DNA of 64,000 nt from Desulfosarcina alkanivorans. Its GTDB lineage: Bacteria; Desulfobacterota; Desulfobacteria; Desulfobacterales; Desulfosarcinaceae. Position numbers and translations under genes: made by a program. A model generated the notes under the pieces. That model was not told the DNA's origin, searched no databases, and was given only the letters and a program-made list of their open reading frames with translations. The stretch spans positions 5,642,001-5,706,000 of the forward strand of contig NZ_AP021874.1 of NCBI RefSeq assembly GCF_009688945.1, in the 5' to 3' direction. Below are positions 29,298-38,955 of this stretch, in pieces (positions within the stretch are counted from its first letter, which is position 1; every line of letters starts with the position of its first letter).

Positions 29298-29444
29298 TGG
29301 TCAAATATGACCAATGGTTATATGTGACCTGAAACGCTAAGCATGTTCTTCCCTCACAGCTGAAGCCTTCCAATCATATTTCTTCATTAAATCAACTTGA
29401 TGCGAAAAAGAAACGAGCAGGAATGATTCGGCATGAACTTTGAG
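29298..29444 (+). promoter_or_regulatory. Sigma-54-type control module upstream of hflK
   Basis: Three parts in order. (1) Two adjacent 16-bp palindromes, TGGTCA-AATA-TGACCA (29298-29313) and TGGTTA-TATG-TGACCT (29315-29330), candidate enhancer sites. (2) An IHF-like AATCAA-CTTG-ATG at 29390-29402 within a shared CATTAAATCAA block. (3) A promoter-like CGGCATGAACTTTGAG with GG at 29430-29431 and GA at 29442-29443, ten bases apart, matching the GG-N10-GC rule except for the last base. The same layout recurs before the KH gene. The gap between enhancer end and GG is 99 bases. Confidence 0.7.
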
Positions 29445-29570
29445 ATAGCCAATCCATTAATGGATGCTTCCGGTGGTTGGAAGCAATAATCCACATATAC
29501 TAAATGGTGTGATGCCCTAAACAAACAAGCATCGATGAAGCTGATCGGCTCTTTTACTAGGAGGTAAGTT

Positions 29571-30620
29571 ATGACTGAATGGAATCAACCCCAAGGGGGA
29601 TCCAAACCGACGTTGGATGACGTGCTGGAAAAAATCCTACAGCAGTTTAAAAGATTCAAAGGCGGTCCGGTCTTCATTCTTGTCGCCGGTCTGGTGGTGG
29701 TGGTCTTATGGACTGCATGGTTCACCGTTCAGCCGGAGGAGACGGGGATTGTACAGCGCTTTGGCAAGGTCATGCGCACGGCCGGCCCAGGACTGCACTT
29801 CAAATTGCCCTATGGCATCGAAAAGGTCCGTCTGCTGCCTACGGCTCGGGTGCTTAAAGAAGAGTTTGGGTTTCGGACGGTATCGGTTTCCACCGTTCCC
29901 GGTGAAAAGACCCGTTATGATACGCGAGGTGAATATAAGGACGAGTCGTTGATGCTTACCGGCGACTTAAATGTCATCGATGTTCAATGGATCATCCAAT
30001 ACCGCATCGAAGATCCGATCCGCTATCTGTTCCAGGTCCGCGACACATCGAAAACCATCCGCGATACCACTGAGGCGGTTATGCGCCGCGCGGTCGGCAA
30101 CCGTCTGGGCAGCGATGTACTGACCACCGGACGGGTGGCCGTGGCCAGTGAAGCCAAAAACGAAATCCAGAAAATCCTGACAACCTATGAGTCCGGCGTG
30201 CGACTGGTTACCGTGGAACTTCAGGATGTGACTCCGCCGGATACGGTTAAACCGGCTTTCAATGAAGTCAACGAATCGCGCCAGGACAAAGAGCGAACGA
30301 TCAATAAAGCCCAGGAACAGGCCAACCGGGAAATCCCCAAAGCTCGAGGGGTGGCTACGCAAAGCATCAGCGAGGCCGAAGGTTACGCACTGGAACGCGT
30401 GAACCGGGCCCAAGGAGAGGCCACCCGTTTTGAGGCCATATTAGGACAATATCAGCAGGCGCCGCAGGTCACGCGCCGGCGGCTGTATCTGGAGGCCATG
30501 ACCGGTTTCCTGTCAGACATGAAAGGGCTCTATATCGTGGATAAGGACCAGAAGGCCATGGTGCCCTGGCTCCCATTGGAATCCAGTGGGCAACTATCAG
30601 CACAAGGGAGGCAGCCATGA
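29571..30620 (+). CDS. hflK: HflK-type membrane protease modulator (SPFH/band 7)
   Basis: A 349-residue single-pass inner-membrane protein: short cytoplasmic N-terminus, TM at about 33-53, then an SPFH/band-7 domain (QPEETGIVQRFGKVMRTAGPGLHFKLPYGIEKV) and a long helical coiled-coil stretch (about 230-310). HflK and HflC assemble into a cage around FtsH and control its proteolysis. AGGAGG lies before the ATG. It overlaps hflC by four bases. E. coli HflK is longer and has a Gly-rich N-terminus, here reduced to about 12 residues. Confidence 0.93.
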   Translation: MTEWNQPQGGSKPTLDDVLEKILQQFKRFKGGPVFILVAGLVVVVLWTAWFTVQPEETGIVQRFGKVMRTAGPGLHFKLPYGIEKVRLLPTARVLKEEFGFRTVSVSTVPGEKTRYDTRGEYKDESLMLTGDLNVIDVQWIIQYRIEDPIRYLFQVRDTSKTIRDTTEAVMRRAVGNRLGSDVLTTGRVAVASEAKNEIQKILTTYESGVRLVTVELQDVTPPDTVKPAFNEVNESRQDKERTINKAQEQANREIPKARGVATQSISEAEGYALERVNRAQGEATRFEAILGQYQQAPQVTRRRLYLEAMTGFLSDMKGLYIVDKDQKAMVPWLPLESSGQLSAQGRQP

Positions 30621-31585
30621 AGTTTACCTTGAAAGCAGTAATCATTGCGATAGCGGTGGTGATCGTTATCGCACTCTATGGCGGTCTATATACATTGGAA
30701 GAGGGTCTGCAGGCCATTGTCGTGCAGTTTGGCCGACCTGTTGGGGAACCGGTAACCCAGGCGGGGCTGCATATGAAACTGCCTTTTGTGCAGGAGGTCC
30801 GGCGATTCGAAAAGCGTCTACTGGTCTGGGATGGCGATCCGAACCAGGTTCCCACCAAGGGGCGCGAGTTCATCTGGGTGGACACCACCGCCCGATGGCG
30901 GATTGCCGACGCGAAAAAATTTCTGGAGAATGTGGCCAGTGAAGAAGGTGCCCAGTCGCGCTTGAACGATATTCTCGATTCGGTGGTGCGCGACCAGGTG
31001 TCGAGCAGTGAACTCGTGGAACTCGTGCGCAGCGCATCGTGGGAAGTGCCTGAGGGCGAGGCCCTGAAGGAGATCCCAAAGGAGCGCGAAGAGGAGCTTA
31101 AAAGGGAGATTGCCCGCGGCAGGGAGGAGATCACCCGAACGATACTGACTGAAGCACGAAAGATCATCCCGCAATATGGCATCGAATTGGTGGATGTCCG
31201 CATCAAGCGTCTGGATTACGTGGAAAGTGTCCGTGAAAAGGTCTATGAACGCATGATCTCCGAGCGCAAACGGATCGCTGCGCAGTTCCGCTCCGAAGGT
31301 GAGGGACGCAGTGCCGAGATCCTCGGTACAATGGAAAAAGAGCTGCGCCAGATCCGCTCCACCGCTTACCGCCGGGTGCAGGAGGTCCAGGGCGAAGCCG
31401 ACGCTGAGGCAACGCAAATCTATGGCCAAGCCTACAATAAAAATGCAGAATTCTATGCTTTTTTGCGCACCCTTGAAAGCTACAAGGAAAAGACTAATAA
31501 GAACTCCGTTTTGATTCTCACCACAGACAGTGATTTCTATCAATATATCAAGCAGGCGAGCCCCGGGAAAGGGCGGGTTCGATGA
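30617..31585 (+). CDS. hflC: HflC-type membrane protease modulator (SPFH/band 7)
   Basis: A 322-residue partner of HflK: TM at about 5-25, SPFH domain starting TLEEGLQAIVVQFGRPVG, and a helical tail rich in Glu, Arg and Ala (SERKRIAAQFRSEGEGRSAEILG) typical of HflC. It would form alternating HflK-HflC rings in the periplasm. ATGA overlap with hflK. An insert near residues 150-180 (LKREIARGREEITRTI) is highly charged. Confidence 0.93.
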   Translation: MKFTLKAVIIAIAVVIVIALYGGLYTLEEGLQAIVVQFGRPVGEPVTQAGLHMKLPFVQEVRRFEKRLLVWDGDPNQVPTKGREFIWVDTTARWRIADAKKFLENVASEEGAQSRLNDILDSVVRDQVSSSELVELVRSASWEVPEGEALKEIPKEREEELKREIARGREEITRTILTEARKIIPQYGIELVDVRIKRLDYVESVREKVYERMISERKRIAAQFRSEGEGRSAEILGTMEKELRQIRSTAYRRVQEVQGEADAEATQIYGQAYNKNAEFYAFLRTLESYKEKTNKNSVLILTTDSDFYQYIKQASPGKGRVR

Positions 31586-31671
31586 ATGCCGATCCGTTGA
31601 CTTTGTTCACTCCCCGGGAGACGAGATGTTACCGGGAAAAATCCAACAAATAGATAAGAGAGGTAGTATTC

Positions 31672-37093: not shown

Positions 37094-37323
37094 AGAAAAA
37101 GTTCTTTCGAATAGCCGAACCACTGAACCAATTATTGCGGCTTCACCCTCTACGCAATGGATCTGAATCCCATGGAATTTACAACGCTGGGGTAGTCTGT
37201 CTTTGCGCCCGGTTGCGTTCACCATACAACTATATTATTATGAATAAAACGATATTCTGGACAAGAAGCAACTGCCTAATAAAATTAAAACAATCCGGTA
37301 TACGGATAACGCAAGACAAGTTA

Positions 37324-38805
37324 ATGGGAAAAGCTTATCCGGATATTTTTGATAGCATCCTCGGTTCGATTCGGGAACCAGTGGTAGTACTTGATCCTGA
37401 TCTGAAAGTGATCAAGGCCAACCCTTCCTTCTACGACACGTTCAATGTTAACCCCAAACAGACGGAAGGGGTGTTGATATATGATCTCGGCAATAGGCAA
37501 TGGGACATCCCCAAACTCAAAGAATTGCTGGAAGAGATCCTCCCTCAAAACACTAAGCTCAATGATTTTGAGGTGGAGCATCACTTTGAGTCCATCGGGC
37601 GTAAGATCATGCATTTGAATGCCAGGCGAATATACACCGAAGAAAATCATACACAGCTGATTCTATTGGCCATCGAAGACGTAACCGATCGCGAATATTA
37701 CAAAAGAAATCTTGAGGACATTGTTGAAAAGCGGACCGCCGAACTGAGAATAGCAAGGGAGGAAGCTTTAAACAGCAAACACGTGGCTGAAAACGCGTTA
37801 GAAAAAATAAAGTGCCTCAAAGACCAACTCGAAGCCGAGAGGGCCTATCTTCAGGAAGAGATAAAACTGGAGTTCAACCATGAGAACATTATTGGCCGAA
37901 GCAACGAAATCAAATATGTATTTTACAAAGTCGAACAGATCGCCGCCGCGGATACCAATGTTTTGGTTTTAGGCGAAACCGGAACCGGTAAAGAACTTGT
38001 GGCGCGGGCGATTCACGGATTGAGCTCAAGCAAGGATCGGGCTCTGGTGAAAATGAATTGTGCCGCACTGCCTTCGAACCTCATTGAAAGTGAGCTTTTC
38101 GGCCATGAGAAAGGCGCTTTTACCAATGCGTATTCCAGACGGTTGGGACGATTCGAGATCGCCAATGGTACAACCCTGTTTCTGGATGAAATCGGCGAGC
38201 TGCCCCTGGATTTGCAGCCCAAGCTGCTTCAGGTAATCGAGACCGGCGAATTTGAGCGCCTGGGCAGTTCAGAAACCATAAAAGTCGACGTCCGCATTAT
38301 TGCCGCCACCAATCGAAATCTGGAAGCGGAAGTGCGCAAGGGAACGTTCCGGGAGGATCTTTGGTATCGGCTGAATATTTTTCCGATCACCATGCCCCCG
38401 CTCAGAGAACGCAGGGAAGACATCCCTTTGCTGGTCGATTATTTTATCGATAAAATCTCCAAGCGGTTGGGAAAATCGATCAACCTGGTTCCGGTGAATG
38501 TGATGAACACATTGCGGAACTATCATTGGCCCGGCAATATTCGCGAGCTTGAAAATGTCCTCGAGCGAGCCGTGATCAACTCATCGGGTCCCAAACTGCA
38601 CTTGGTGGATGAACTGAAAAAGCCGAATAAAGATTTAACAAACACGAATCGGACCCTTGCGCACGTAGAGCGGGAGTATATTCTGCGAGTGCTTGAACAG
38701 ACCCAATGGAAAGTCAGCGGAAACAACAGTGCGTCTGAAATCCTCGGCCTTGAACGCAGCACATTGCGCGCCCGCATGCGCAAACTTGATATCCACAAAC
38801 CATAA
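37324..38805 (+). CDS. Sigma-54-dependent activator with N-terminal PAS domain
   Basis: A 493-residue enhancer-binding protein: PAS sensor (about 5-125), coiled-coil linker (about 130-180), AAA+ domain with Walker A GETGTGKE (217-224), Walker [12 protein letters not shown], and a C-terminal Fis-type helix-turn-helix ([22 protein letters not shown]). The sigma-54 contact loop, normally GAFTGA, reads GAFTNA (264-269). The start is uncertain: ATG 37324 fits the family, but ATGs at 37240 and 37090 (overlapping the primase stop) keep the frame open. It is the obvious candidate to bind the paired palindromes before hflK and the KH gene. Confidence 0.88.
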
Positions 38806-38809
38806 ATAA

Positions 38810-38955
38810 TGGTCACATATGACCAATGGTCATATGCGGCCAATCTTATAATCTGCTTTTTTCTGCCATCTTGACCTGCTCAATCTCTATTTCCCATTAA
38901 ATCAAATCAATACAGTAAATTCACGGCACATTCCAAAACCGGCATGGACTTTGAG
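38810..38955 (+). promoter_or_regulatory. Sigma-54-type control module upstream of the KH gene
   Basis: A second copy of the module found before hflK. Paired palindromes TGGTCA-CATA-TGACCA (38810-38825) and TGGTCA-TATG-CGGCCA (38827-38842), a CATTAAATCAA block with an IHF-like AATCAA-ATCA-ATA (38900-38912), and CGGCATGGACTTTGAG with GG at 38941-38942 and GA at 38953-38954. The enhancer-to-GG gap is 98 bases, one less than in the hflK copy. It begins five bases after the activator gene, so the activator may both end one transcript and drive the next. Confidence 0.7.

Follow-up and report, generated by a model that had tools for sequence, protein, structure and literature searches.

The locus studied here raises the question of what controls two gene runs of Desulfosarcina alkanivorans that begin behind nearly the same composite element. 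The window, i.e., the whole stretch of 64,000 nucleotides that was analysed, covers positions 5642001–5706000 of the 7.32-Mb genome. Within it, a module made up of two GGTCA-N4-TGACC palindromes (the enhancer pair), AATCAnnnnGATG with a site resembling that of integration host factor (IHF), and a promoter of the form YGGCAYRAAnnTTGA occurs twice, before an hflK-like gene and before a KH-domain gene. With a probability of roughly 0.87, judged from sequence comparisons, each module is a sigma-54 promoter that the neighbouring PAS–AAA+–Fis activator turns on, and together they would control a regulon of membrane, proteostasis, and envelope stress-type genes.

Two copies of one architecture

The modules and the activator gene comprise the following features:

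29298–29330, + strand: enhancer pair 1 (palindromes 29298–29313 and 29315–29330, centres 17 bp apart); element found in 23 of 60 genomes
29390–29402, + strand: IHF-like site 1, AATCAACTTGATG, 39 bp ahead of the start of the -24 box
29429–29444, + strand: sigma-54-type promoter 1, GG-N10-GA, predicted start about 29455
37324–38805, + strand: predicted sigma-54 activator, PAS–AAA+–HTH_8 (start 37324 from the N-termini of orthologues; 37240 possible)
38810–38842, + strand: enhancer pair 2 (palindromes 38810–38825 and 38827–38842), right after the activator stop codon
38900–38912, + strand: IHF-like site 2, AATCAAATCAATA, 40 bp ahead of the start of the -24 box
38940–38955, + strand: sigma-54-type promoter 2, GG-N10-GA, predicted start about 38966

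A sequence-only reading of this DNA had described the same architecture at 29298–29444 and 38810–38955, and the positions and identities bear this out. The 33-bp enhancer blocks are identical at 28 of 33 positions, the CATTAAATCAA blocks (29385–29395 and 38895–38905) at 11 of 11, and the 16-bp promoters (CGGCATGNACTTTGAG at 29429–29444 and 38940–38955) at 15 of 16, with both promoters reading CGGCATG-N-ACTTTGAG. Recounting gave the same distances from enhancer block to GG as that reading, 99 bases in copy 1 and 98 in copy 2. The first palindrome of each pair is an exact TGGTCA-N4-TGACCA; the second has 2 mismatches. Two details needed amendment: the letters at -12 are GA, not the canonical GC, and the IHF-like site, present in both copies, matches at 8 of 9 positions.

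The whole-genome scan for the paired palindrome that the same reading had suggested (24-base pair, ≤3 mismatches) returned the two window copies as sole matches, with 0 for the reversed control. Within the window, two places match the 20-base core of the pair, compared with 0.00 per shuffle at ≤3 mismatches and 0.26 at ≤5 (200 shuffles). Across the genome, this looser core at ≤3 mismatches is weaker evidence, with 2 places against 2 reversed-control places; at ≤2 mismatches, the control gave 0 places in this genome and 1 among 291 genomes. A strict composite of all parts with a free gap of 86–116 found the two window modules alone (control 0), so that the architecture is unique in the genome at the thresholds used.

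Matches to YGGCAYRAANNTTGAD numbered 4 in the genome (control 1). Those at 2312270, 5375659, and 6479491 were considered as further regulon members and rejected, as the best enhancer upstream of each had 8–10 mismatches. Single-palindrome scanning of the genome gave hundreds of chance matches, and a terminator scan showed no enrichment (26 matches versus 21.9 in shuffles); neither was used.

Conservation and spacing across genomes

The main comparison set comprised 60 genomes, and the class-level set 291 (71 with an orthologue of the activator and 220 without); the orthologue cut-off of E≤1e-140 was fixed only once the matches had been viewed. In total, 39 genomes gave 91 module calls, with each strand counted where an enhancer has a promoter on both strands (G026:C167, G249), and the other genomes carry 1–7 modules each. 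In the 60 genomes, the 20-base core at ≤3 mismatches gave 65 places in 25 genomes (control 12 places in 10 genomes), and the strict composite gave 23 matches in 14 genomes (control 0 of 60). Scripted scans around activator orthologues and around pattern matches, with an allowed gap of 85–111, yielded 68 raw modules in these genomes, of which 63, in 23 genomes, remained after those without TG at -12 or below a set promoter score were dropped.

The enhancer-to-promoter geometry is unusually rigid, being nearly fixed at about 100 bp. The gap was 97–102 bp in 61 of the 63 modules, the exceptions being 92 and 111. A further set of 20 regions from 17 additional genomes of the class, picked for matches in prior searches and read with a gap of 70–134 allowed, gave 27 modules, all at 97–103 and 14 at exactly 100. 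When the 23 strict-composite modules were reread with a free gap of 60–140, 22 lay at 98–103 to GG, a count that is one more than the gap in the 63-module set, and one lay at 113. The cross-genome scans required GG and TTG/TG, so the constancy of those letters is by construction; their place relative to the enhancer is not.

Three off-length modules (G014:C64:140246, G027:C58:5638, and G039:C1:200037) have gaps of 92, 111, and about 112, departing from 100 by 8–12 bases, or about one helical turn. One of the 20 further regions (G180) had no module; its class-level palindrome pair has a GC-richer core without a promoter and was taken as chance.

The IHF-like element also recurs in place. A score of at least 8/9 was reached in 36 of the 63 modules; shuffles would give about 6.2, and the reverse strand gave 7. 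In 47 modules the best match sits 39–41 bp before the promoter, and 32 combined both properties. The usual element ends in GATG (last part ATG/ATA), not TTR, which makes a related bending protein possible; the site may thus be bound by IHF or by such a protein (HU-like).

The activator and competing explanations

As the sequence-only reading had stated, a Fis-type sigma-54 activator is encoded directly before copy 2: the protein matched Sigma54_activat (PF00158, AAA+, 233 bits, cut-off 20.2) and HTH_8 (PF02954, Fis-type, 33 bits, cut-off 22), and enhancer pair 2 begins just past its stop. Its nearest named relative among the matches listed is from a Desulfosarcina metagenome-assembled genome (89% identity). 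Among the matches listed, 21 of the 60 genomes have an orthologue with at least 76% identity over all or part of the protein (3 cut by a contig end). The module was present in 21 of these 21 genomes and in 2 of the 39 others (G016, G030; Fisher p = 3e-14, uncorrected for relatedness). Genomes without the orthologue were judged by the 20-base core at ≤3 mismatches, whereas the G003 module has 4 mismatches and came to light only through reading of its activator locus, a bias favouring the association. At class level, the pair at ≤2 mismatches occurred in 42 of 71 orthologue genomes versus 10 of 220 others (p = 3e-22).

Position and protein sequence also tie the activator to the module. In 12 of the 21 orthologue genomes, a module lies less than 400 bp downstream of the activator gene. 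The recognition-helix motif RSTLRAR was found in all 18 readable orthologues (a 19th is cut) versus none of nine paralogues, and in all 10 activators located in the further module-bearing regions. One orthologue (L034, G023) has a different N-terminus starting with a hydrophobic stretch, with the same AAA+ domain, helix-turn-helix, and palindromes; DNA specificity would accordingly seem to lie in the C-terminal part.

We propose that two activator dimers would sit on the paired palindromes through the RSTLRAR helix, and that IHF or an HU-like protein at AATCAnnnnGATG would bend the roughly 100 bp between, bringing the activator ring to RNA polymerase–sigma-54 waiting at YGGCAYRAAnnTTGA. A signal sensed by the PAS domain would lead to ATP hydrolysis and promoter opening. 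Promoter 1 would then drive the hflK–hflC–ftsH–cls–primase-like genes and, by co-directional read-through, probably the activator as well (positive feedback), and promoter 2 the KH–ABM–Transgly_assoc–glycosyltransferase–GH130–PEP-enzyme genes. The earlier suggestion that the activator and two promoters form a self-contained regulon is supported by the presence of two modules in the genome, the co-occurrence, the adjacency, the shared helix, and the spacing.

Several observations weigh against this reading. The genomes are kin and not independent, and both p-values are therefore too small. Both window copies have the GG at -24 and the ten-base spacing to -12 of a sigma-54-type promoter and deviate at -12 itself, where the letters are GA, in TTGA, not the canonical GC of TTGC. 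Left free by the pattern, the letter after TTG was A in 20 of 23 modules and T in the other 3, never C; across the 63 modules, for which the scan gave A one scoring point of thirteen, it was A in 50, T in 9, G in 2, and C in 2. Canonical TGGCAYRNNNNTTGCW sites exist in this genome (28 versus 3 in the control), and all read TTGCT. An IHF match of 8/9 is missing from 27 of the 63 modules, and 29 of the 71 class-level orthologue genomes lack the pair at ≤2 mismatches, a strict threshold. Modules occur in G016 and G030, with no close orthologue among the matches listed. Finally, the loop of sigma-54 activators that contacts sigma-54 is GAFTGA, and in the window activator it reads GAFTNA.

A few modules from the further genomes do carry TTGC. 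With one RpoN match in the genome, a second sigma-54 is no explanation for the TTGA -12. On these letter counts, the -12 element is a conserved deviation, and the sigma-54 promoter class is very likely without being the textbook one. Among the 19 orthologue rows, the congeners G002 and G004 have GAFTDA, and the other 16 have GAFTGA or GAFTGS; either the deviation is tolerated or the window copy is weakened, and its activity appears less than certain. Regions were read for eight of the ten class-level genomes with a pair and no orthologue (G030, G073, G089, G134, G143, G180, G249, G266), G171 and G183 lying outside this reading, and all except G180 have composite modules; assembly gaps or other activators perhaps account for modules in genomes that yielded no close orthologue.

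The alternative that survives best, though we consider it unlikely, is a genuine sigma-54 module whose true activator is another enhancer-binding protein of this genome. Candidates are plentiful, with at least 26 homologous activators at E≤1e-60 (26 of 116 candidates scored), and both the GAFTNA loop of the neighbour and the modules of G016 and some class-level genomes without a close orthologue among the matches listed would fit. Co-occurrence and adjacency nevertheless favour orthologues of the neighbouring activator, and the nine paralogues compared have a different recognition helix. We give even less credence to the view that the palindromes are operators of another kind of regulator (a repressor or a sigma-70 activator) and that GG-N10-GA is incidental. 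TGGTCA-type palindromes are known for other regulator families, and the GC at -12 is missing, but chance would hardly account for the near-fixed distance to GG-N10-G(A/T) in many modules with the gap left free, or for the linkage to a sigma-54 activator. A recent functionless DNA duplication, to which the 105 of 154 columns identical in the whole-module alignment might point, is refuted by cross-genome conservation and has a negligible chance of being right: it is in the enhancer, IHF-like block, and promoter that the copies are most alike, and the same parts recur with different intervening sequence in 39 genomes.

Other observations concern the activator family and its surroundings. In G030, a 209-residue PAS protein (L194 155–784) lies behind a module; it shares 52% identity with part of the activator, no AAA+ domain was seen in it, and its frame ends at its own stop, 155 bases from the contig end. 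Some genomes have genes for a CheB-CheR-PAS-type protein and a histidine kinase-like protein ahead of the activator (L050, L051, L180; Pfam on L051, the others by clustering), a possible input pathway. The window encodes a second sigma-54 activator-like protein at 59142–61994, with 44% identity over the AAA+ part. A related-locus search with the activator returned mostly unrelated activators, with 3 of 80 loci above 70% identity. In the activator tree, family f1 does not lie on one side: a 100/98 branch takes in rows of three other families and omits two f1 rows. The placement of f1 fits transfer and also fits paralogy.

Target genes and biological meaning

The genes behind the two modules are as follows:

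29571–30620, + strand: hflK-like (Band_7), first gene behind module 1
30617–31585, + strand: hflC-like (Band_7)
31672–32022, + strand: small protein, no Pfam match
32125–32409, + strand: small protein, no Pfam match, with homologues found again near other modules
32439–34403, + strand: ftsH-like membrane protease
34564–35769, + strand: PLD-domain protein, cardiolipin-synthase-like
35810–37093, + strand: primase-like protein (CHC2 zinc finger, DNAG_N, Toprim_2)
39024–39302, + strand: KH_KhpA-B protein (alternative start 39072), first gene behind module 2
39336–39659, + strand: ABM-domain protein
39770–40057, + strand: Transgly_assoc membrane protein
40058–43418, + strand: two group-1 glycosyltransferases (40058–42373, 42402–43418)
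43415–45952, + strand: two GH130 proteins (43415–44356, 44471–45952)
45928–47712, + strand: PEP-utilising enzyme (PTS enzyme I-like)

From hflK through the activator, the genes of module 1 lie on one strand with intergenic gaps of -4 to 230 bases, which makes read-through to the activator, and hence positive feedback, plausible. A sigma-70-like match at 37258 could serve the activator as an alternative, such matches being no commoner than in shuffles. The stand-alone primase-like protein sits in a stress-type gene run, with the PLD-type synthase on one side and the activator on the other. Three tandem tyrosine-recombinase-like genes, recognised by eye from translations, lie on one strand at 24895–28047, just before hlyIII and module 1; they resemble recombinase-in-trio elements and are a possible mobile-element edge of the locus.

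Across the 91 modules, 85 first genes were called (6 modules had none), matching 57 families. Within the first 25 of these, the commonest were ABM (16), KH (11), B12-radical SAM-DUF4070 (5), BON (4), and Band_7 (3), followed, with two each, by GroEL, OmpA, CsbD, PRC, GDSL lipase, DUF5670, DUF2959, LapA, histidine kinase, and response regulator. Single first genes, such as those for an AI-2E transporter and part of an ABC transporter, suit a stress picture less well. Elsewhere in the gene runs, holin-X, KaiC-like, CheB-CheR-PAS, and pyruvate-ferredoxin-oxidoreductase-like genes were found, along with a weak DUF883 match below its cut-off. By protein clusters, one run (G024) comprises KH, ABM, HflK, HflC, GroEL, and the activator. 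Genes for DUF4070-containing B12-binding radical SAM proteins recur as first or early genes (L182, L058, L059, L197, L199; Pfam on L182 and pooled, the rest by clustering), and the hopanoid methylase HpnP has this domain set.

In other bacteria, many of the target families are controlled as stress genes by RpoS or sigma-B. No RpoS above the TIGR02394 cut-off was found in any of the 60 genomes, Desulfosarcina alkanivorans included, while one control genome was above it. The targets look stress-type (KH, ABM, BON, CsbD, PRC, GroEL, HflK/C-FtsH), an apparent enrichment that is a matter of judgement. BON, CsbD, Transgly_assoc, and PRC are shared with the RpoS and sigma-B general stress regulons, which differ from the present system in that sigma-54 and an activator would act here. 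The transmissible locus of stress tolerance combines FtsH with a small heat-shock protein and ClpG/ClpK, and its FtsH component has an ftsH-like counterpart behind module 1.

Enhancers of sigma-54 promoters are usually taken as distance-tolerant. Such tolerance is noted for NtrC in the D. vulgaris regulome paper (PMC4641369). In that paper, the one-component sigma-54 enhancer-binding-protein regulons mostly comprise 1–4 operons, with sites usually upstream of the promoter; they resemble the present one in having a one-component activator, often encoded beside its own sigma-54 promoters, and a small regulon. They differ in belonging to another group of sulfate reducers, in a promoter consensus of tGGcacg/tTGCt, and in varying site-to-promoter distances (PMC4641369). 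At the D. vulgaris orp promoters, which depend on the activator DVU2106 and sigma-54, IHF was shown to be necessary (PMC3897727). These promoters likewise have an activator palindrome and an IHF site between palindrome and sigma-54 promoter, whereas activator and targets differ, and the two orp promoters are unlike each other in their IHF sites and distances, with no fixed 100 bp. A 2025 cross-phylum sigma-54 survey lists GroEL among sigma-54-linked chaperones and 69 activators in Desulfosarcina ovata (PMC12316311).

The main text of the regulome paper, supplements excluded, contains neither 'GGTCA', 'TGACC', nor FtsH, and the regulon is mentioned in the available text of neither that paper (PMC4641369) nor the survey (PMC12316311). 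A search by the palindrome letters found no paper in the searchable literature, which leaves subscription papers and supplements outside, and the papers listed on sigma-54 with sulfate reducers, stress, HflK, FtsH, GroEL, IHF, and spacing held no description of the regulon; relative to this searchable literature, the regulon is new.

On the comparisons made here, we read the system as a sigma-54 activator regulon that is real, widely conserved, and of a known kind, with a rigid geometry and a deviant -12. More tentatively, and with the balance leaning against it, this may be the core of a general stress response of Desulfobacteria, dispersible and self-amplifying, that runs through sigma-54 and not through an RpoS-type factor: a single family of PAS activators and a rigid 100-bp activator–bend–promoter module would have recruited many RpoS-like targets, with the TTGA -12 separating these promoters from TTGC promoters. 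The roughly ninety natural modules that keep their distance within a few bases provide a natural data set for the geometry of DNA loops, and the regulon assigns an activator to module genes in many uncharacterised genomes. It is also a candidate for what co-ordinates envelope and protein-quality genes in those sulfate reducers where no RpoS above the cut-off turned up.

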